The translations under genes were made by a program, and so were the position numbers. From assembly GCF_000166135.1 (NCBI RefSeq), contig NC_014666.1, positions 1,116,001 through 1,180,000 of the forward strand: 64,000 nt of DNA, in the 5' to 3' direction. The notes under the pieces were generated by a model. That model saw only the letters and a list, made by a program, of their open reading frames with translations. It was not told where the DNA came from and did not search any database. Shown here piece after piece: positions 976-45,143 of the stretch (positions are counted from its first letter, which is position 1; every line of letters starts with the position of its first letter). The stretch is from Pseudofrankia inefficax (GTDB taxonomy: Bacteria; Actinomycetota; Actinomycetes; Frankiales; Frankiaceae).

Positions 976-1948
976 GAAACCACCGCGGATCGCCCTGGCT
1001 GGGCGCGGCCCGTGCTCGGACTACCGGAACCGCCCCGGCGTGCCGACGGAATTTCAGCCGGTGTGGAGTAGTGCGCATCAGGTGCGTCCGGGCATGGCGA
1101 ATTCCCCCCAACGCGTCAGCGGAGTTGGTGACCGCCGTAACCGTGGGAATCGCGGTTCGGCCGTCGTGAGATATTTTCTCCAGCGAACCGAGCGAACCGC
1201 TCGCCGTGTTCACCGCAGCGGGCAGGCCTGCCACGGCGGCGGCTCCTCGCCGCCCGAAGAACCCGCGGACGGGCTCCCGACACCGCGCTGTCGGGCTTGC
1301 ACCCGCAAGCCTGCCATCGGCCGGACCGGCCGGGACAGCTGACCGTAACCCGCGGCGCCTAGCGATCTTGCCAGCGGTGAGTATCGGCTGGTCACGCGCC
1401 CTGCGTGGCTCGTCCTGGGACCGGCCCGTCGCATCGGCTCGGCGCCAACGGCCCCGAGCGGGCCAGCCTCGGCAACCCTCCACCCCATCGCACCCCCTGT
1501 CCGTTAGCCAATACGGTCGCCCGTTTGATGGGCTACCCCACGGGCCGGGGTTCCCGCAGGTCAGCGGCCCGCTGGCACTACCGGAGTACAGCCAGACTGG
1601 GTTAGCGACAGCGTTCCTTTATTAGTCGCGCCGGGGGGCGGGCGCGCTGGAGGCGCGGGTCCCGTGTGGTCGGGTGGCTGTTTCACTGCTCCACTCTCCC
1701 CATTTAAATCTCTTTGTGTATGACTGCCGATGCAGGAATCCGAACTCCATTTCCTTTCCCCTCCCCATTCTTTTCTCTCCCCCCGAAAAGGTCTCTGGCC
1801 TGCGGAAACGCGGCCGGAAGAATCATGGGAAATGCGCGAGAAGGGCGCCGATTGGTATTGAATTCCGCGCGCGCGGGAGGGACTATTAGATATCGGCGCG
1901 TCGCGCTCGGCGTGCGGCGCTAAATCCCTCTCTTGCATGGAGCCTTCC
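976..1948 (+). other. Long non-coding stretch with AT- and pyrimidine-rich leader
   Basis: No convincing gene is seen across about 970 bp. The last 250 bp are clearly AT-richer than the surroundings. They include a tract at 1745-1784 that is 38 of 40 pyrimidines, then a purine-rich stretch. This probably carries the promoter and a long 5' leader of the sigma-like gene at 1949. Confidence 0.4.
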
Positions 1949-2761
1949 ATGTCGCATTCCTTCATTCCGCCTGTCTTCTCTCGGGACATTCCTTCGACTG
2001 TTGCCGGTGAGGCGGCGACGGCTGAGGACATGGCGCGGGTCACTGAAGCGGACTGGGCTGAGATCGTCGGCCACGCCCGTCGGTACTGTCGGAAGATCGA
2101 CGCCACCCGGTCACGGAAGCGTGCGGACGGTTCGGCCACGATCGCGCGAGACGGCTACGGGAGCTACGGCAGTGACGACGTGGCCGACGACGTCGCCCAG
2201 GACGCCGTCCTGATCTTCGCCCGCCGGCTCGGTGTGATCATGAGCCGGTGTGTGGTCGCGTCCGTCAACGTGGCCACCCGCGAACCCGACCAGTGGCAGT
2301 ACCAGCCGAAGGTGGGGGAGATGTTCCTCGCGGATCGTGCCCTGATCCGGGCGTGGGCCGTGCCGGAAGCGGCCAAGCGCAACGGCTACCGCCCGGTCAA
2401 GCCCACGGACGCCACCTCGCCGGAAGTGGTCGACCAGCGTGCCCGGTATCTGGCCACCGTCACGTTCCTCGCGGGCATGTCCGAAGCGATCTTCGCGGAA
2501 GCGTGGGCCGACGGAAGCGACTTCCCGATTCTCAGCAAGGTCATGGACGTGGCGAGCCGCGCCGATGACCTCGGCCGGACCGGTGTGTTCTCGGGCGTGG
2601 CCCAGCAGATGTACGGCGGCAAATACGGCTCGGGACGTCCCGTGCGCAAGGTCCGGGACGCTGCCCGCGCGGAAGCACACGAACTCACCGAACGCTGTGA
2701 CGCCATCCGCGACCGACTCACCTACCAAGAACAGCCCAAAGACCACCCCCCGACCGACTGA
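1949..2761 (+). CDS. Sigma-70 region 2-like protein of unknown role
   Basis: 270 residues from the ATG at 1949, which has GGAG six bases upstream; an ATG at 1937 in the same frame is the alternative and contains that GGAG. Residues about 25-85 resemble sigma-70 region 2, with an acidic SDDVADDVAQDAVLIFARRL helix like the DAEDxxQEvFlrlw core-binding helix. No region 4 is recognisable, so it may be a degenerate or diverged sigma-like regulator. The C-terminal 100 residues (GSDFPILSKVMDVASRADDL and following) recur in a broken paralogue at 5625-6049. A strong terminator and then a 40-unit repeat array follow the stop. Function unknown; the sigma link is an inference from sequence pattern. Confidence 0.6.
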   Translation: MSHSFIPPVFSRDIPSTVAGEAATAEDMARVTEADWAEIVGHARRYCRKIDATRSRKRADGSATIARDGYGSYGSDDVADDVAQDAVLIFARRLGVIMSRCVVASVNVATREPDQWQYQPKVGEMFLADRALIRAWAVPEAAKRNGYRPVKPTDATSPEVVDQRARYLATVTFLAGMSEAIFAEAWADGSDFPILSKVMDVASRADDLGRTGVFSGVAQQMYGGKYGSGRPVRKVRDAARAEAHELTERCDAIRDRLTYQEQPKDHPPTD

Positions 2762-2779: not shown

Positions 2780-2808
2780 GGAGCCTCCGAGCACAGCTCG
2801 GAGGCTCC
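2780..2808 (+). terminator. Strong intrinsic terminator
   Basis: A perfect 13-bp stem (GGAGCCTCCGAGC / GCTCGGAGGCTCC) with a 3-nt ACA loop, followed by tcccctttt, lies 19 bp after the stop of the sigma-like gene. A related hairpin follows the broken paralogue at 6075-6097. Confidence 0.85.
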
Positions 2809-2821
2809 TCCCCTTTTCACC

Positions 2822-3581
2822 GTGCCGGGCTCCGCCGGCCGTGCCGGGCTCCGCCGGCCGTGCCGGGCTCCGCCGGCCGTGCCGGGCTCCGCCGGCCGTG
2901 CCGGGCTCCGCCGGCCGTGCCGGGCTCCGCCGGCCGTGCCGGGCTCCGCCGGCCGTGCCGGGCTCCGCCGGCCGTGCCGGGCTCCGCCGGCCGTGCCGGG
3001 CTCCGCCGGCCGTGCCGGGCTCCGCCGGCCGTGCCGGGCTCCGCCGGCCGTGCCGGGCTCCGCCGGCCGTGCCGGGCTCCGCCGGCCGTGCCGGGCTCCG
3101 CCGGCCGTGCCGGGCTCCGCCGGCCGTGCCGGGCTCCGCCGGCCGTGCCGGGCTCCGCCGGCCGTGCCGGGCTCCGCCGGCCGTGCCGGGCTCCGCCGGC
3201 CGTGCCGGGCTCCGCCGGCCGTGCCGGGCTCCGCCGGCCGTGCCGGGCTCCGCCGGCCGTGCCGGGCTCCGCCGGCCGTGCCGGGCTCCGCCGGCCGTGC
3301 CGGGCTCCGCCGGCCGTGCCGGGCTCCGCCGGCCGTGCCGGGCTCCGCCGGCCGTGCCGGGCTCCGCCGGCCGTGCCGGGCTCCGCCGGCCGTGCCGGGC
3401 TCCGCCGGCCGTGCCGGGCTCCGCCGGCCGTGCCGGGCTCCGCCGGCCGTGCCGGGCTCCGCCGGCCGTGCCGGGCTCCGCCGGCCGTGCCGGGCTCCGC
3501 CGGCCGTGCCGGGCTCCGCCGGCCGTGCCGGGCTCCGCCGGCCGTGCCGGGCTCCGCCGGCCGTGCCGGGCTCCGCCGGCC
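2822..3581 (+). repeat. 40 perfect tandem copies of a 19-bp unit
   Basis: The 760 bp are exactly 40 copies of GTGCCGGGCTCCGCCGGCC with no visible variant. Each unit contains GCCGG-GCTCCG-CCGGC, a 5-bp stem with a 6-nt loop, so the array is a row of 40 small hairpins on either strand. The unit has no stop in any frame and 19 is not a multiple of 3, so all six frames stay open and give long spurious ORFs. The array starts 14 bp after a terminator and ends in a partial unit (gtgc). Confidence 0.97.
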
Positions 3582-3883
3582 GTGCAGTTGCTGAGGCGGG
3601 GTGTGATGGCCCTGCTGCCGCGTGGTTTTTGCTTCGCCTGGCAGGTCGGCGCTGCTTCCTCCTCGCCGTCCTGCCTGCCCACCGGCCTTCTCGCTCGTCT
3701 TCCCACCTGCTTGTGCCTGATCGCGTCGTGGGCTGGGAAGATGGCGTTGCGCTGAGCCGCGCTGACCGGTAGTCCGTGCTGGGTCGGCATTGCGCCGTTC
3801 GTTGGATCCGTGCGGATGGTGCCCGGGTGGAGCCGTGTCTGCCGGTGGTGGCTTCCTGCCTACTTGTGAGCGGCACCGTGGAC
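3582..3883. other. Non-coding spacer after the repeat array
   Basis: About 300 bp between the array and the end of the minus-strand gene at 3884. Open frames here are extensions of the repeat frames. I see no gene, terminator or clear repeat. Confidence 0.4.
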
Positions 3884-5624: not shown

Positions 5625-6049
5625 ACGGGCCAAGGCTCCCAAACGCGGCGAACCACCAGAAGCGGGATTGCGCCGCGACTACCACCCTACTGGTCGCCTG
5701 GGTGCGAGCCACCGGCGGTCGAGCAGAGCGCCCGACGGCTGGCGTCGGCCACCTACCTCGCCGGCATGTCAGGTGCGATCTTTCCGTGTGGGGTGACGGC
5801 AGCGACTTCCCGATCCTGAGCAAGGTCATGGACGTGGCGAACCGGGCCGATGACCTCGGTCGGGCCGGTCTGTTCTCCGAGGCCGCCCGGCAGATGTACG
5901 GCGGCAAACGCGCATCCGGCCGGCCCATGCGCACGGTCCGCGACGGTGCCCTCGCCGAAGCCCGCGAACTGTCCGCCAGCTGCGACGCCGTCCGCGACGA
6001 TCTCGCGCAGCGCAACCGACTCACCAAGCACACCCGGCCCGAGGACTAA
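5625..6049 (+). pseudogene. Truncated, frameshifted paralogue of the 1949-2761 gene
   Basis: From about 5820 to the stop at 6049 the frame encodes a close match to the C-terminal 85 residues of the sigma-like protein (GSDFPILSKVMDVANRADDL, then RQMYGGKRASGRP). Just upstream, the homologous ATYLAGMSGAIF is in another frame, consistent with a net 4-bp deletion near 5783-5790 (paralogue GCGGAAGCG against CCGTG). Further upstream, weak similarity shifts frame again and the first roughly 150 residues, including the sigma-like part, are absent. Clearly a decayed copy. Confidence 0.8.
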
Positions 6050-6074
6050 ACGCAGCCCTACCACCCCCACAGAA

Positions 6075-6097
6075 CCTCTGAGCACCACGCTCGGAGG
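6075..6097 (+). terminator. Terminator of the decayed paralogue
   Basis: CCTCTGAGC-accac-GCTCGGAGG, a 9-bp stem with one G-T pair, in the same place relative to the stop as the terminator at 2780-2808 and with the same stem sequence. It shows that gene and terminator were duplicated together. Confidence 0.65.
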
Positions 6098-6126
6098 CTC
6101 CGCCCATCTCCCCGCCGTTTCAGCCC

Positions 6127-6284: not shown

Positions 6285-6440
6285 GGTGTGTCCGGTCGGC
6301 GGCCGGACCGGTCGGTGGGGTGACCGGGGCGGGTCCGGGTCCGGACCCGGACCTCGCGATCGGGCTGATGGTCCGATTCATGTCTCGGTGGACGGTCGGG
6401 GTTGGTTGCCGTGCGGTTGAGGGGGACCCGCGATGGGGGA
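6285..6440. repeat. Dispersed GC-palindrome element, copy 1
   Basis: Contains a perfect 22-bp palindrome at 6332-6353 whose inner 20 bp are GTCCGGGTCCGGACCCGGAC. The flanks (tgtccggtcggcggccggaccggtcgg before, cggtggacggtcgggg after) reappear around 30348-30455, and the palindrome recurs at 26049-26068 and, with one mismatch, at 31848-31869. The stretch 6098-6579 holds no gene. Confidence 0.6.
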
Positions 6441-7924: not shown

Positions 7925-8035
7925 GTTTGTGTTTCGGGCGGACGGTCGGGGGCCCCGGACCGGCGTCTGTTGAGGGTGGGGACCGAGCGGCCGAAGCGGC
8001 TCGCCGGACGTCGAGCCGCGCAGCATCCGTGGGCG
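7925..8035 (-). repeat. Copy of the tail of a BNR/sialidase-like remnant
   Basis: The minus-strand reading LRGSTSGEPLRP and the DNA gcggacggtcgggggcccc ... ggccgaagcgg ... cgccggacgtcg parallel 26086-26205, where the same LRGPTSGGPLRP follows a recognisable BNR-like remnant. Only the end of that region is present here. Confidence 0.45.
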
Positions 8036-25202: not shown

Positions 25203-26150
25203 GACCGGGAACTGGCCTGTGGATCGGGGCGGCCATCGCGTCCAGCAGCGGCCCGGCCAGGGCCGGTCTCGTCGACATCTCCCGGGCTAGCCGTAGCTGA
25301 CGGCGTCCGAGCCGGGCTTCTGCCCGGCGGCGTGGTCAGGGCGCCAAGCGCCGCAGGACCGCGACGATCGTGAGCGCGGACAGCGTCAGGCCAGGGGCGC
25401 CTCGCGGCCGATCGTGGCGCTCAGGGCAGTGCCGGTTGTCAGGGCCACGACCAGTGCCACCGCGATTCGCGATGAAACCGGCGCCGCGAGCAACGCGACC
25501 ATCTGTCGATCACCTGCTGGACGAGTCCGGCAGTTGAGAGCGGACAGCGGCGGTCCGCCGACTCCTGGCCGATTGGCGGGCCACCGCTGTGCACGCAGCG
25601 TAGCCGCCTTGGGGGAGGTTGTCGTGATCCGTCGTGCGTCGTGGTGGCGGGCGGGGTGCATGTCGAAGCGGGACGCTGTCCACGCGGCGGGTAGGTCGAC
25701 AGGCGAGCAGAACCCCGGACGCCCACGGCCACAAACGGCCGGGCAGGCCGGGTTCCGGACGGGAACTCTCTGACTCGCATGGCAGGATAGGCGGCGGTGG
25801 CCCGCCGAGGTCGTCGAGTCCCTGCGGCGGGCCACCGTTACGACCGACAGGCGCTCGCGTCCGCGCCGAGCGATGGCTGGCTGTGGTCTCGCACGTACGG
25901 CTCCCGCGCGGTCGCCTGTGTCCGCCGATCGTGTGCGGGGCAGTGCCCCGTTGGGCTGGGCTCCGGTCGGTCGGTCGGCCGGTCGGGATCGCGGGTCGTG
26001 TCCGTGTCCGGTCGGGGTGCGGTTCGGTCTGAGGACCGACCTTTCCGAGTCCGGGTCCGGACCCGGACCGGGGGACCGCTTCGTGCTCGGGCGGACGGTC
26101 GGGGGCCCGGGGCCGGCGTTTGTCAAGGGCGGGGATCGAGCGGCTGGGTG
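25203..26150. other. Long stretch without a supported gene
   Basis: About 950 bp. A short minus-strand hydrophobic frame at 25386-25502 (38 residues, AVALVVALTTGTALSATIG) might be a small membrane peptide but has no other support. From 25960 the sequence joins the dispersed palindrome family. Confidence 0.35.
26049..26068. repeat. Dispersed GC-palindrome element, copy 2
   Basis: Perfect 20-bp palindrome GTCCGGGTCCGGACCCGGAC, identical to the inner part of the 6332-6353 palindrome. The surrounding 25960-26110 is also similar to the other copies. Confidence 0.65.
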
Positions 26151-31693: not shown

Positions 31694-32488
31694 ATGACCG
31701 ACCCGACCCGCCCTGACCCCGACCGTTCCGCCGGCGAGCAGCCACGCCCCCGGCGCCCGCTATCCCCTGCGGCACAGCAGCCAGACCGTCCGCGCCTGGC
31801 CCCCGCGCCCTCGGCGCCGCCGCCCGTGGGCGGGGACGGGCAGGACGGGTCCGAGTCCGGACCCGGACCCTTTCCCGGTCTGTCCTCCGCCCCCGCCCTA
31901 AACGGGAATCCGGACCCGGACCTGGCGGTCGTATGCCCGCGGTCCATTCCCGGATCGGAGTATTTCCCGTGCTTGATGGGTTCCCTTCCCGACCGTCCGG
32001 GGGTTATTCTTGTCGTCAATGAGCCGGATACTGCCCCGTGCCCTGCTGGGAGCGGCTGCCCGATCCTGCCCCCTGCGTCGCCGTTTCCCGAGGCGCCCGG
32101 AGGCGCTATGACGGCCCCCGGCGCCCCGGCCGGCGGCGGGCCGCGGATCACCCGGCCCGACGACGATCACTCTGGCCGGATCGACCAAGCCGCCGCGACG
32201 GGCTCCGGCCCGGCCGGTGCCGGCCCGGAGGCGTCGGTGGGGGAGCGGCCCGACGGGCCGGACGCGCGGGTTCTCCCCTTGCGGCCTCGGTCGCGGGGCA
32301 GAGCGGGCGGGTCGGCCCGGGGGTGGGTGTTCCACGGCGAGGTCGAGACGATCACCGGCCCGGAAGCCGACCGGATCCGGGCGGAGTTGGCGGACGTGCT
32401 CCGTGATCTTCTGCTCTGGGCCGCCGGCCACGACGACGGCGGCACGGCGCAGGACGGCGGACCGGTCCAGGAAGGGGAGGCCGCATGA
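31694..32488 (+). CDS. Hypothetical protein coupled to the recombinase
   Basis: 264 residues from ATG 31694 with AAGGAGG ten bases upstream. ATG 32108 also has a good site (GGAGG) and would leave only the last 126 residues. The N-terminal 200 residues are Pro/Gly/Ala-rich with no fold, partly because a dispersed palindrome lies inside the frame. The last 50 residues look folded (GWVFHGEVETITGPEADRIR, AELADVLRDLLLWAAG). Its stop overlaps the recombinase start by 4 bp (ATGA), so the two are translated together; it may be a small accessory or directionality protein, which is inference. Confidence 0.55.
   Translation: MTDPTRPDPDRSAGEQPRPRRPLSPAAQQPDRPRLAPAPSAPPPVGGDGQDGSESGPGPFPGLSSAPALNGNPDPDLAVVCPRSIPGSEYFPCLMGSLPDRPGVILVVNEPDTAPCPAGSGCPILPPASPFPEAPGGAMTAPGAPAGGGPRITRPDDDHSGRIDQAAATGSGPAGAGPEASVGERPDGPDARVLPLRPRSRGRAGGSARGWVFHGEVETITGPEADRIRAELADVLRDLLLWAAGHDDGGTAQDGGPVQEGEAA
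31848..31869. repeat. Dispersed GC-palindrome element, copy inside a gene
   Basis: Same 22-bp palindrome as 6332-6353 but with one mismatched pair (GGTCCGAGTCC / GGACCCGGACC). A half-copy (aatccggacccggacc) follows near 31911. It lies in the low-complexity N-terminal part of the gene at 31694. Confidence 0.55.
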
Positions 32489-34458
32489 TCGATCCCGGTG
32501 AGCTGTCCCGGGCGGCCGATCCCGGCCGTCCGGGGCTCGGCCCGGCGAGCCGGGCGACGGATCCGGCGCGTCCGGCGCTGTCGGACCTGGCGGTGTCGCC
32601 GTTCGCGTTGCCGATGGCCTTGTTGGAGCGGGAGGTCCGGGTCGCGTTCGCGGGGCGGACCTCGACCGAGGAGCAGCAGGACCCCCGCCAGTCGCTGATC
32701 CGCCAGCTCGGCCGGGCGAAGTCCGCGCTGCCGGAGACGTGGGTGATCGTCGCGCACTACTACGACGTCGAGTCCGGCCGCAAGGATCTCGAACAGCGGG
32801 GCCATGGGGCGGACGTGTCGCGGTTCGACATCCCGATCCCCCGGGACGGCGGCATCGATGATCTTCTCGCGGAGGCTTCGCATCCGAACCGCCGGTTCGA
32901 TGTGGTGATCTGTGAGTCGATGTCGCGGATCGCCCGGCGGATGTACGAGACGCTCGCGATCGAGCGCCAGCTCGAAGCGGCCGGCGTCGCGCTGTTGGCG
33001 TGGAACGAGCCGATCAAGACCGACGGTCCGCGGGCGTCCGCGATCCTGCATCGGCGGATCAACCAGTCGGTCGCCGAGTACGAGGTCTGGCAGACCCTCG
33101 AAAGCTCGTGGGGTGGGCTGTGCACCCACGTCCGGGACGGCTGGAACATCGGGAAACCGCCCTACGGCTACCGGGCGAAGAGCGTGCGGCATCCGAACTC
33201 GGCGAAAGCGGACCGGGGGGCGACCAAGTCGCGGCTGGAACCGGACGGGGCGCGCGGGGAGACCGTCACGCAGATCGCCCACTGGCGTTACTACCGCAAG
33301 CTCGGCTACGGGGCGATCGCCGAGGCGCTCAACGCCGACCTCGAACGCTACCCACCCCCCGAACCGGTCGGCGGGGCCCACCGCGCCCGGGGTGCCTGGG
33401 GGAAGTCGACCGTCGCGGACCTGTTGCGCAACCCGAAGTACACCGGCTACCAGGTGTTCAACCGCCGCGCCAGCCGGTCACGGCACGGCGCGGTCAACGG
33501 GCCGGAGAAATGGGTGTGGTCCGAGCAGCCCGTCCACGAACCGCTGATCCCGAAGTGGATGTTCGACGAGTTCAACGCCCACCGCACCGAGCGGCGCGGC
33601 TCCCGCCAGACCAACACGCTGAACAGCCACCCCGCGACGAAGCGGACCTATGTGTTCCGGGGCATGGTCCACTGCACCTGTGGACGGCGGATGGCCGGGA
33701 ACGTCCGCGAACCCGGCGCACCGGTCTGGTACATCTGCTGGCCCAAGGCGAACAACCGAGGCCGCGACGACAAACTCGACCAGCACCCGAAGACCGTCCG
33801 CATCCGCGAGGACGTCCTGGAGAAAGCGATCGGGGAGTTTTACGCCGAACGGGTCTTCGGCCGCAGCCGGATCACCCTGCTCACCGCGGAACTGGCGTCC
33901 TACGACGACCGCGCCGCCAACGAGCGTGCCGCCGAACGCGGCCGGCTCCAGAAGAAGATCGACGACCTGACGCGCCGGCAGGCCAACCTGCTGCGCCAAG
34001 CCCAGGACGGCGACCCCGACGACCCGTTCACCCAAGGGCTACGCGCCACGTACAACGACCTCGACGCGGAACGCAAGGTCACCCTCGCGAAGATCCAAGA
34101 ACTAGACGAGGCCGACGACGCCGAACCCGAACGGCCCGGACCCGACAACCTCCAACTCCTCGACGCCCTACCGGAACTCGCCCTCAAGCTCCACCAGGCA
34201 CCCGAAGCGTTGCAACGACGCCTCTACGAGATCACCCAACTCACCGTCCAACTCGATCACGAAAGGCAGGAAGTCAAGATGATGATCAAAATACCGGCCG
34301 TCGACCTCGACCAGGTCGCAACCCTCGCGGAAGGAGCCGCCAAGCCCCCCGCGCGCACGGCACCCACAAGAACTCTCTCTCGCGTGGATGCTGTACGTGC
34401 CCCCGGCAGGATTCGAACCTGCGCACCTGCCTCCGGAGGGCAGTGCTCTATCCCCTGA
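32485..34458 (+). CDS. Large serine recombinase (integrase)
   Basis: 657 residues. Catalyses site-specific strand exchange through a serine nucleophile. Resolvase domain from about residue 50: VRVAFAGRTSTEEQQDPRQS (Arg58, Ser60 as nucleophile candidate), CESMSRIARRMYE. The recombinase domain (YGYRAK, YYRKLGYGAIAEALNAD, WGKSTVADLLRNPKYTGYQV) follows, then a zinc-ribbon-like part (MVHCTCGRRMAG, WYICWPKAN) and a coiled coil at about 475-550. The last 20 residues are encoded by the antisense of tRNA-Arg (34398-34469), so the gene ends inside the presumed attachment site. Most tRNA-targeting integrases are tyrosine enzymes, so this arrangement is unusual. Confidence 0.93.
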   Translation: MIDPGELSRAADPGRPGLGPASRATDPARPALSDLAVSPFALPMALLEREVRVAFAGRTSTEEQQDPRQSLIRQLGRAKSALPETWVIVAHYYDVESGRKDLEQRGHGADVSRFDIPIPRDGGIDDLLAEASHPNRRFDVVICESMSRIARRMYETLAIERQLEAAGVALLAWNEPIKTDGPRASAILHRRINQSVAEYEVWQTLESSWGGLCTHVRDGWNIGKPPYGYRAKSVRHPNSAKADRGATKSRLEPDGARGETVTQIAHWRYYRKLGYGAIAEALNADLERYPPPEPVGGAHRARGAWGKSTVADLLRNPKYTGYQVFNRRASRSRHGAVNGPEKWVWSEQPVHEPLIPKWMFDEFNAHRTERRGSRQTNTLNSHPATKRTYVFRGMVHCTCGRRMAGNVREPGAPVWYICWPKANNRGRDDKLDQHPKTVRIREDVLEKAIGEFYAERVFGRSRITLLTAELASYDDRAANERAAERGRLQKKIDDLTRRQANLLRQAQDGDPDDPFTQGLRATYNDLDAERKVTLAKIQELDEADDAEPERPGPDNLQLLDALPELALKLHQAPEALQRRLYEITQLTVQLDHERQEVKMMIKIPAVDLDQVATLAEGAAKPPARTAPTRTLSRVDAVRAPGRIRTCAPASGGQCSIP

Positions 34459-34469
34459 GCTACGGGGGC
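34398..34469 (-). tRNA. tRNA-Arg (anticodon CCG)
   Basis: The minus strand folds as a 72-nt cloverleaf: acceptor GCCCCCG/CGGGGGC with discriminator A, D arm GCTC-AGGGGATA-GAGC, anticodon arm CTGCC-CTCCGGA-GGCAG (anticodon CCG, reading CGG), 4-nt variable loop, T arm GCAGG-TTCGAAT-CCTGC. No CCA is encoded. Its 3' end faces the serine recombinase and the island. Confidence 0.97.
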
Positions 34470-40919: not shown

Positions 40920-42131
40920 TTGACCGGGGTCTTCGGCCGCTCGTCCGTCAGTTCCGCGGCGGGCCCGGGTAGCACGACCGACCTGGGCCACGCGGCGTCC
41001 GGCGCGGGTCAGGCGGGCTCCGGGCCTGACGAGGACGGGCCCCGGGTCGGCGTCCGGGTCCGGGTGCCGGCGACGAGCGCGAACCTCGGCCCGGGCTTCG
41101 ACGCCTACGGGCTGGCCCTCGGCTACTACGACGACGTCGAGGTGACCCTGCGCCGCCGTGGCCTCGCGGTCAACGTCACGGGGGCCGAGCAGGTCTCCGA
41201 CGGCGAGGACAACCTGGTCGTGCGCGCGATCCGCGCCACGTTCGACGAGCTGGGCCGGCCGCAGCCGGGCCTGGACGTGCGCTGCGTCAACCGGATCCCG
41301 CACGGCCGCGGCCTCGGCTCGTCGGCCGCGGCGATCGTGGCCGGCGTGGCCGCGGCCTGGGCTCTCGACCCGGGCGCCTATCTGGCCGCCGAGACCGGTG
41401 GCTCCAGCTCGGGCGCACCCGCGGGCCTCTCCAGCGGGGCCGACGCGTTCGACCGGTCCGGCGCGCTGCGGGTGGCGACCGCGATCGAGGGCCACCCGGA
41501 CAACGTCGCCGCCGCGCTGTTCGGCGGCTTCACCGCCGCCTGGACCGGACCTGACGGCGTGGCGGTCCACCGCGCCGAGCCGGTCGCCGAGCTGCGCCCG
41601 GTCGCGTTCGTACCGTCCGTGCGGACCTCGACGTCGGCCTCGCGCGGCCGGCTGCCCGAACTGCTGGCCCATGAGGACGCGGCCTTCTCGGCCGGGCGCG
41701 CCGGCCTGCTCGCCCTCGCGCTCACGCTGCCCGTCAGCGCCCCAGGTGGCCAAAATGCCCCCGGTGGCCGATCTGTCGCCGGCAACCACGGTGTCCCCGG
41801 CAACCACGGTGTCCCCAGCAACGACGGTGTCCCGGGTGACCCGACGGCGGCCGTCGCCGCGCGCGCTCGGCTGCTGATGGCGGCCACCGAGGACCGGCTG
41901 CACCAGCCCTACCGGCTGCCCGCCGTGCCCGAGTCGGCGGCTCTGGTGGAGCGGCTGCGGGCGGCCGGGGTGGCGAGCGTGCTGTCCGGCTCCGGCCCGA
42001 CCGTGCTCGCTCTCGCCGTCGGTGGCGCGCAGGCCGCGACCGCGGTTGGCGTGCCCGCCCCTGGCTTCGCGGTCCTCCCGCTGGCCGTCGACCGTGACGG
42101 CCTCCGGGTCATCTCGGCCGGGAGCCGTTAG
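40920..42131 (+). CDS. thrB: Homoserine kinase with repeat insertion
   Basis: 403 residues from TTG 40920; the conserved part begins at VGVRVRVPATSANLGPGFDA (about residue 45), so a later start is possible. GHMP kinase with the ATP loop NRIPHGRGLGSSAAAIVAG, the EGHPDNVAAALFGG motif and C-terminal VASVLSGSGPTVLAL. It is about 100 residues longer than usual. The extras are a Ser/Gly-rich stretch after the ATP loop and, at about residues 282-307, a Gly/Asn-rich insertion made by three 18-bp tandem repeats (41781-41834). Confidence 0.93.
   Translation: MTGVFGRSSVSSAAGPGSTTDLGHAASGAGQAGSGPDEDGPRVGVRVRVPATSANLGPGFDAYGLALGYYDDVEVTLRRRGLAVNVTGAEQVSDGEDNLVVRAIRATFDELGRPQPGLDVRCVNRIPHGRGLGSSAAAIVAGVAAAWALDPGAYLAAETGGSSSGAPAGLSSGADAFDRSGALRVATAIEGHPDNVAAALFGGFTAAWTGPDGVAVHRAEPVAELRPVAFVPSVRTSTSASRGRLPELLAHEDAAFSAGRAGLLALALTLPVSAPGGQNAPGGRSVAGNHGVPGNHGVPSNDGVPGDPTAAVAARARLLMAATEDRLHQPYRLPAVPESAALVERLRAAGVASVLSGSGPTVLALAVGGAQAATAVGVPAPGFAVLPLAVDRDGLRVISAGSR
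41781..41834 (+). repeat. 18-bp tandem triplicate inside thrB
   Basis: Two identical copies of GGCAACCACGGTGTCCCC and a third with three changes, encoding GNHGVP-GNHGVP-SNDGVP in frame. The preceding 18 bp look like an older degenerate unit. Confidence 0.85.
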
Positions 42132-42977: not shown

Positions 42978-45143
42978 TTGAGCGACACCACCGACGTGCT
43001 GCCTGAGAGCGCACGTGAGTCAGCGGCGCCCGCACCGCTCCCCGTCAGCCAGCCGGCCGCGCTCGCGCCGACCGCGCCGGCTGCTCCGGTGCTGGTAGAG
43101 GGCGGGGCCGGCCAGGTGCCGGCGGACGACGCGACTCCAGGCTCGGCCACTCCGCGCCGTCGCCGTAGCGGTACCGGCCTTCAGGCCATGCTCCTGCCGG
43201 AGCTGCAGTCCATGGCGAGTTCGTTGGGGATTCAGGGCACCGGCCGGCTCCGGAAGGGGCAGCTGATCGCCGCTATCCAGAACGTGCAGAACGGCCTGGC
43301 GCCCATGGCGAACGGCGCCGGCGCCGAGCCCGAGGAGCAGGCCGCTGAGCCGGCCGCGCCTCGGGCCAGGAGCCGGCGCGTCACCCGCGGCATCGTCAGC
43401 CCCGAGCAGGCCGAGCTTGTCGAGGCGCCGGCCCGGGAAACCACCGAGCCGCCCGCCGCCGACCAGCCGGCCGCGGCGGCCCCCACCGGCAGCACCGGCA
43501 CCACCAGCACTCCCCGTGCCCGCGAGGACCGCCGCGACCGTGGCGAGCGCGCGGACCGTGGCGAGCGCGCGGACCGAGGCGAGCGCCCGGACCGGAGCGA
43601 GCGCGCGGACCGTGGCGAGCGCCCGGAGCGTCCCGAGCGTGGCGACCGTCCCGAGCGTGGCGAGCGTGCCGACCGGGGCGAGCGTCCCGAGCGTGGCGAG
43701 CGTCCCGAACGGGGTGAGCGCCCTGAGCGCTCCAACGGCCGGCAGACCGACCGCCAGGGCTCGCGCCAGGACCGGCAGCAGTCCGATCGGTCGGACCGCC
43801 AGTCCGACCGCCCCGACCGGCAGTCGGACCGCCCGGACCGCCAGTCCGACCGCACGAACGACCGCCAGGGCACCCGCGCCGCTGCCCAGCAGCAGCCGGA
43901 TGACGACGAGGACGGCAACCGGCGGCGTGGGCGGTTCCGTGAGCGCGGCCGCAACCGTGGCCGTGGCCAGGGCGGCACCACCGAGAACGAGCCGGTGGTG
44001 CGCGAGGACGACGTCCTCATCCCGGTCGCCGGCATCCTCGACGTCCTGGACAACTACGCCTTCGTCCGGACCAGCGGCTACCTGACCGGCCCGGCCGACG
44101 TCTACGTCAGCCTTGCCCAGGTCCGCCGGCACGGCCTGCGCCGCGGCGACGCCATCACCGGTGTCGTGCGCGCCCCGCAGGAGGGCGAGCCCCGCCGGGA
44201 CAAGTACAACGCGCTCGTCCGCCTGGACACCATCAACGGGATGGACCCGGAGGAGGCCCGCGGCCGCCCCGAGTTCACCAAGCTGACCCCGCTCTACCCG
44301 CAGGACCGCCTGCGGATGGAGACCGAGCCGCACGTCATGACCACGCGGATCATCGACCTGGTGATGCCGATCGGCAAGGGCCAGCGCGCGCTCATCGTCA
44401 GCCCGCCCAAGGCCGGCAAGACGATGGTGCTGCAGTCGATCGCGAACGCGATCACCACGAACAACCCGGAAGTCCACCTCATGGTCGTGCTCGTCGACGA
44501 GCGGCCGGAGGAGGTCACCGACATGCAGCGGTCGGTGAAGGGCGAGGTCATCGCCTCGACCTTCGACCGGCCGCCGTCGGACCACACCAACGTCGCCGAA
44601 CTGTCCATCGAGCGGGCCAAGCGGCTCGTGGAGCTGGGCCAGGACGTCGTGGTGCTGCTGGACTCGATCACCCGGCTCGGCCGTGCCTACAACCTGGCGG
44701 CGCCGGCGTCCGGCCGCATCCTGTCCGGTGGTGTCGACTCGACGGCGCTGTACCCGCCGAAGCGGTTCCTCGGCGCGGCCCGCAACATCGAGAACGGCGG
44801 CTCGCTGACGATCATCGCCACCGCCCTCGTCGAGACCGGCTCCACCATGGACACGGTCATCTTCGAGGAGTTCAAGGGCACCGGCAACGCCGAGCTCAAG
44901 CTCGACCGCAAGATCGCCGACAAGCGGATCTTCCCGGCGGTGGACGTGGACGCGTCCAGCACCCGTAAGGAGGAGATCCTGCTCGCACCCGACGAGCTGG
45001 CGATCATGCACAAGCTGCGCCGCGTGCTGCACACCCGTGAGCCCCAGCAGGCCATCGAGCTCCTGCTCGGCCAGCTCAAGCAGACGCGGACGAACTACGA
45101 GTTCCTGATGCAGATCGCGAAGACGACGCCGACCGCGGACTAG
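42978..45143 (+). CDS. rho: Transcription termination factor Rho
   Basis: 721 residues from TTG 42978 with a strong ribosome site. Hexameric RNA helicase that ends transcription. N-terminal SAP-like helix ([20 protein letters not shown]), then a long Arg/Asp/Glu insertion (about 180-335) made of RGERAD/RPER-like hexads and DRQSDRP repeats, typical of actinobacterial Rho and able to bind structured RNA. RNA-binding domain with [12 protein letters not shown], Walker [12 protein letters not shown] (about 476-486), Walker [16 protein letters not shown], and R loop [16 protein letters not shown]. Perfect hairpin at 45167 follows. Confidence 0.97.

Follow-up and report, generated by a model that had tools for sequence, protein, structure and literature searches.

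Comparison with described repeat arrays and sigma factor systems

Among described bacterial systems, minisatellite or VNTR loci, ECF sigma factors with their target promoters, plasmid iterons, and the arrays of ToxIN-type antitoxin RNAs and CRISPR come closest to the locus analyzed here. This locus lies in a stretch of 64,000 nucleotides from Pseudofrankia inefficax (the window), in which a 19-bp tandem array follows a gene for a sigma-like protein. Bacterial minisatellites are likewise built of a short head-to-tail unit in perfect copies, with length and variant differing by species, and the 40.3 units of 19 bp at 100% match fall among head-to-tail, near-identical units of 10–100 bp. However, this array keeps to a single gene family and a single position, with units replaced between branches, whereas a gene partner is no defining feature of ordinary VNTR loci. 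The resemblance to ECF sigma factors and their target promoters (e.g., ECF41; PMC3426412) consists of a weak similarity of the gene product to sigma region 2, a bipartite motif of fixed spacing that adjoins the gene and has CGT(A) as its second block, and the recurrence of a similar motif at further island genes. The differences are a first block GGACGG in place of the typical AAC, the location of several tandem motifs past the gene's own terminator, the failure to identify an anti-sigma gene, and a product that is not recognized by the Pfam sigma models.

Plasmid iteron arrays share direct repeats of about 19–22 bp beside a DNA-related gene and a mobile-type island, but the 40 copies found here and the unrelated units of the orthologues set the locus apart; iterons adjoin a Rep-family gene, and no Rep match was obtained for the present gene in Pfam, NCBIfam, or PHROG. 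Tandem short repeats with a terminator between gene and array are also seen in ToxIN-type and CRISPR loci, unlike which the present array is without spacers, comes after and not before the gene and terminator, and has neither a toxin or Cas partner nor a conserved RNA fold. A CRISPR array was rejected as the repeats are contiguous with no unique spacers, both by direct reading and by TRF, as the earlier note on this DNA had stated. A search of the literature found nothing on these arrays.

The 19-bp array and its genomic background

TRF analysis of the window revealed one tandem array at 2820–3585 with a period of 19 (40.3 copies, 100% match, zero indels, score 1532), and direct reading of the sequence concurred, giving 40 full units between 2822 and 3581. 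The earlier description of 40 × 19 bp without variants was thus reproduced, as was the start of the array shortly past a strong terminator, with 13 bp between the end of the hairpin at 2808 and position 2822. The exact 19-mer occurs in the whole 8,815,781-bp genome solely as these 40 in-register copies. In a census of the host genome, a 464-kb sample contained six other arrays with a TRF score of at least 110, each of 3–4 copies and 62–88 bp in length; the 19-bp array is far above this background. Further tandem repeats with units of 18–54 bp are present in the window at 41774–41833 and 43534–43868, in or beside frames resembling homoserine kinase and rho. The coordinates of the features are given in Table 1.

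Table 1. Features of the locus, with positions in the 64,000-nucleotide window.
Feature	Position	Strand	Basis or remark
Conserved gene-proximal upstream region, TTGAATTCC...GGGACTATTAGATATCGGCGCG	1860–1936	+	Alignment of branch-A and branch-B upstream regions
Gene for 270-aa sigma-like protein	1949–2761	+	Orthologues; weak similarity to sigma region 2
Terminator-like hairpin, GGAGCCTCCGAGC-ACA-GCTCGGAGGCTCC	2780–2808	+	Arms invariant in branch-A orthologues; predicted fold at every branch-A locus
Tandem array of GTGCCGGGCTCCGCCGGCC (40.3 identical copies)	2820–3585	.	TRF, 100% match; single genomic locus
Post-array block common with Frankia sp. AgB1.9: imperfect hairpin GGCAGGTCGGCG...CGCCGTCCTGCC, then CT-rich tract	3634–3712	+	Read directly
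Fragment of second gene copy, C-terminal part	5750–6049	+	65% identical
Degenerate hairpin copy after gene fragment	6060–6118	+	82.5% match to AgB1.9 hairpin region
Partial promoter-like motif, GGACGGTCGGGG...	6390–6417	+	About 340 bp past gene fragment
Motif variant GGACGG-N18-CGTC	7940–7969	+	Also in AgB1.9
Motif variant GGACGG-N18-CGTT	26093–26122	+	Motif search
Large serine recombinase homologue	32485–34458	+	Adjoins tRNA-Arg and argS
tRNA-Arg	34397–34469	-	Beside serine recombinase and argS

Other assemblies show breaks or Ns at this spot, as an assembly artefact would predict, but independent assemblies of different species also contain arrays, and real arrays themselves cause such breaks, making an artefact hardly credible. 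The array is taken as real, its copy number of 40 being the sole uncertain point with respect to assembly. It is also very improbable that the repeat is coding, i.e., that the array, open in several frames (57 bp corresponding to 19 codons), encodes a repetitive protein. Long open frames do traverse the array on both strands; however, stops are rare in GC-rich 19-mers anyway, a plus-strand frame begins inside the array, no conserved frame was seen outside it, and a 19-bp unit does not divide into whole codons.

The sigma-like gene and the hairpin that follows it

Orthologues of the gene at 1949–2761 were found in 12 of 35 Frankiaceae genomes, and a profile search extended the family to a second actinobacterial family, where the gene is present in 26 of 299 genomes. 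An upstream ATG at 1937 could serve as an alternative start, but the alignment favors 1949, and the conserved region at 1860–1936 is probably the promoter and leader of the gene. No named family was found for the product in Pfam, PHROGs, NCBIfam, or PDB sequences. Comparison of a profile of 19 protein members with 21 sigma factors of the same genome gave a P-value of 5.6e-4 and a score of 31.5 against scores no higher than 22.6 among 20 column-shuffled controls, with a probability of 30%, owing to which the comparison is regarded as a lead. The segment GSDDVADDVAQDAVLIFARRL and the residues following it aligned in order to sigma region 2. The term "sigma-like" applied to the gene in the earlier note is hence weakly supported by the profile, with no match in Pfam, NCBIfam, or PHROG, and a weak similarity of the product to region 2 of sigma factors is suggested. 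Structure prediction by AlphaFold on a three-sequence alignment yielded a pLDDT of 39. No relatives of the protein were found in IMG/VR, INPHARED, or PLSDB, and a search of viral contigs with a dimer pattern of the 19-mer found no array; a phage or plasmid origin was rejected on these grounds.

The arms of the hairpin after the gene, GAGCCTCCGAGC and GCTCGGAGGCTC, are identical in all nine branch-A loci, the loop being variable. Across 35 genomes the palindrome occurs once per branch-A gene and at one further place only, a solitary copy (L088, position 9490; G014:C4:11490) without gene or array. In the other branches, hairpins of equal strength but different sequence mostly take its place. About 3 kb downstream, a truncated second copy of the gene is accompanied by a degenerate copy of the hairpin (5750–6118). 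The end of the array and the sequence beyond it (3492–3707) showed 77% identity to AgB1.9.

Linkage of the arrays to the gene and turnover of the unit

At 11 of 14 assessable Frankiaceae loci, the hairpin of the gene is followed by a tandem array whose start lies no more than about 170 bp from the gene, a count that leaves aside five more contigs ending within 180 bp of the gene. The units measure 19, 9, or 81–101 bp. Besides the window, 19-bp units were found in Frankia sp. AgB1.9 (CTGGGCTGCGCCGGTCGTG, at least five copies plus an assembly gap) and in G019 (CTGGGCTCCGCCGGTCGCG, seven copies); these numbers and the 40 copies of the window each come from one genome per species. The 9-bp unit CTCGGTGGC is present in G026, G015, and G016, and the units of 81–101 bp belong to a divergent branch (G018, G011, G010c with 12 copies, G016c, and G015b). 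In 315 kb of DNA flanking the loci, the TRF rows over threshold (11 rows at nine loci) all start 84–523 bp past the gene, and no array over the threshold was found elsewhere in these flanks.

The earlier note had reasoned that arrays of the 19-mer at unrelated loci would mark a plain satellite. A degenerate pattern of the 19-mer dimer covering the three variants matched in 3 of 394 actinobacterial genomes, each time right after an orthologue of the gene and at no unrelated locus; hence, the array is not an unlinked satellite, and its proposed link to the gene and terminator was borne out. As the relatives keep an array at the same spot with other units, the repeats belong to the neighborhood of the gene and are not random satellite DNA.

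The recent expansion or homogenization proposed earlier agrees with the finding that each of the three species is fixed for a different 19-mer variant. The 19-mer is uniform or nearly so inside each species and differs between species at 2–3 of 19 positions, the common core being C.GGGCT.CGCCGG.CG.G. This divergence is about as large as that of the gene, whose DNA identity to the gene of the window is 91% in AgB1.9 and 82% in G019; the rest of the spacer is for the most part unalignable between species. Comparison of the sequences thus shows that the array keeps its position with respect to the gene and that its unit is uniform within each species but different between species, a pattern that is the signature of concerted evolution. 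Array type tracks the gene tree, with 19-mers in the window, AgB1.9, and G019, 9-mers in G026, G015, and G016, and none in G010a, G010b, and G016b, the support for grouping G019 with the other 19-mer loci being low (0.31). The array is not essential since three orthologous loci are without it. GC-rich degenerate repeats are present in the array-free relatives. An excess of CCGG motifs in the spacer was considered as a hallmark of branch A and rejected, being present in just two of eight loci.

Folding of the unit and the origin of the repeats

Each unit contains the inverted repeat GCCGG-GCTCCG-CCGGC with a 5-bp stem, and a lone unit folds at -10 kcal/mol. In a tandem-shuffle test, 88% of the shuffled-unit tandems were at least as stable as a four-unit stretch of the plus strand and 86% as the minus strand, and the units of the relatives likewise fold no better than their own shuffles. 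As the tandem shuffles are as stable as the real units, the mini-hairpin is an ordinary consequence of a GC-rich tandem repeat. The inverted repeat described earlier is therefore present, but its standing as the meaningful feature is not supported, the stem also becoming wobble-paired in two relatives and not being retained in the orthologous loci with 9-bp units.

These results make it improbable that read-through or antisense transcription yields an RNA with 40 stem-loops. Such an RNA would fit the 5-bp stem of each unit and the C-to-T changes of AgB1.9 and G019, which leave wobble pairs on the plus strand; however, shuffled units fold as well on either strand, the stem is lost in the 9-bp units, the gap between terminator and array is too short for a promoter on the plus strand, and no Rfam match to a known RNA family was obtained. 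Unusual stability or conservation of the stem, as a hairpin-RNA array would show, was not borne out, given the 88% in the shuffle test. The sister arrays described below suggest promoter-like repeats acting as DNA over RNA.

The folding results bear equally on the possible, if doubtful, alternative that the arrays are functionless by-products of slippage, arising because a GC-rich spacer beside a strong hairpin duplicates readily. Perfect copies, turnover of the unit, three array-free loci, folding no better than that of shuffled units, and the degenerate GC-rich repeats of the array-free relatives are all compatible with neutral slippage. Nevertheless, arrays are rare elsewhere, the six in 464 kb of the same genome being far smaller, and recurrence at one gene across genera calls for explanation.

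A bipartite promoter-like motif in related loci

In the divergent Frankia branch, every 81–101-bp unit contains GGACGG-N18-CGTAAC. At 28 of 30 loci examined in the second family, GGACGG-N18-CGTATTTAAGTGAGAG stands past the gene and hairpin in one to four diverged copies, which lie about 80–200 bp apart in most loci. The consensus is GGACGN-N18-CGTA, and the spacer measured 18 bp in all 51 distinct downstream sites having both blocks, with no 18-bp-spaced sites upstream of the same genes. The blocks are conserved and the spacer sequence less so, as judged by information content; two conserved blocks at a fixed distance of 18 bp have the architecture of a promoter. Related loci thus hold, in their sequences, a tandem bipartite promoter-like motif at the place where the array stands in the window. 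In 380 kb of control DNA, there were two loose matches, both without the rest of the motif.

Published ECF sigma promoters combine an AAC-type -35 with a CGT-type -10 element (PMC3426412). The second block of GGACGN-N18-CGTA fits the CGT type and AAC is absent from the first. A bipartite motif of fixed spacing with a CGT-type second block is found near the gene. With respect to autoregulation, a related motif, GGACGA-N18-CGTGCA, lies upstream of the gene in most branch-B members and is lacking in branch A, to which the locus of the window belongs, and in the second family. In G010 and G016, a conserved island gene is preceded by paired like motifs, and in the genome of the window its homologue is preceded by a single one (L087:2074, 1.10 Mb). 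The partial motif at 6390 occupies a position comparable to that of partial motifs 700–950 bp after the gene, beyond the repeats, in the branch-A relatives G019, G016, and G026. A palindrome, GGTCCGGGTCCGGACCCGGACC, is located at about 6330, some 60 bp ahead of this motif, which is likewise preceded by GTCCGGACCCGG(ACC)-like sequences in AgB1.9, G019, and G016 and by a diverged one in G026.

The largest sister array, twelve 81-bp repeats after a paralogue in a 5.43-Mb Frankia genome (L053; G010:C1:2057100–2058100), has two-letter variants (AT/GC) inside the unit that keep a short GAAA-loop hairpin paired. The branch-B units of L054, L051, and L053 contain GCGTAACAAGGTAG, of which 13 of 14 letters correspond to the 3' end of 16S rRNA (TCGTAACAAGGTAG); this likeness is not conserved across the family and was taken as a coincidence.

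The sister arrays bear on the idea that the 19-mers are themselves functional DNA, i.e., a putative decoy or sink to whose serial sites the sigma-like protein or a partner would bind, with expansion tuning its free level. Conservation of position across genera, the shared 19-bp period and core in three species while the remaining spacer fails to align, and promoter-like site arrays at the same spot in the sister branch are in its favor, but the GGACG...CGTA motif is missing from the 19-mer, the unit differs in the 9-bp branch, and three loci have no array; we consider it unlikely.

Genomic setting

A large serine recombinase lies a few kb from the branch-A gene in G019, G016, and G026. The same kind of recombinase near the gene in these three Frankiaceae relatives places the array on an integrative-type island. 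Branch B and some second-family loci are situated downstream of a tad-pilus-like cluster, its identity being read from the proteins and its synteny compared.

Proposed origin and significance of the array

Taken together, the locus is best explained, with a probability of roughly 0.5, as a gene-linked minisatellite homogenized by repeat turnover, directly downstream of the terminator of a sigma-like regulator and on an island. The spacer after the sigma-like gene would ancestrally have been an array of the regulator's target promoters in tandem; in the branch of the window, short GC-rich repeats would have taken over that spot, expanding and homogenizing, their homogeneity being kept by slipped-strand synthesis or unequal exchange. 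On the best reading, the array would sit between the terminator and the region where relatives hold tandem modules resembling target promoters. From this arrangement we infer that GGACGN-N18-CGTA may be an active promoter targeted by the sigma-like protein and that any role of the 19-mer would be played in cis by the DNA itself (as spacing, insulation, or a sink for binding) and not through 40 RNA hairpins. Counting against this explanation, neither the 19-bp nor the 9-bp unit contains the promoter-like motif, which leaves continuity of function between the kinds of array a conjecture; in addition, the sigma assignment is weak, three orthologous loci are array-free, and the placement of G019 has a support of 0.31. 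Of the interpretation in the earlier note, repeat turnover and the link to the gene stood, the sigma-like gene stood weakly, and the mini-hairpin as a feature did not.

A broader proposal, rather unlikely at present, is that the locus represents a regulatory unit of actinobacterial islands, in which the gene of an orphan sigma-like factor has, past its own terminator, target sites of that factor in an array able to expand. If true, amplification (12 copies of 81 bp, 40 19-mers) would serve to titrate the factor or to make more short transcripts, and the array unit would have been replaced repeatedly in evolution while the architecture was kept. A promoter-like site in up to 12 tandem copies would be an unusual sigma-factor sink or amplifier. 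GGACGN-N18-CGTA becomes the predicted target motif for an unnamed protein family in two actinobacterial families and is directly testable, and what appeared to be a satellite becomes a testable type of locus in which a regulator gene and a conserved hairpin are accompanied by an array that keeps its position but changes its unit.
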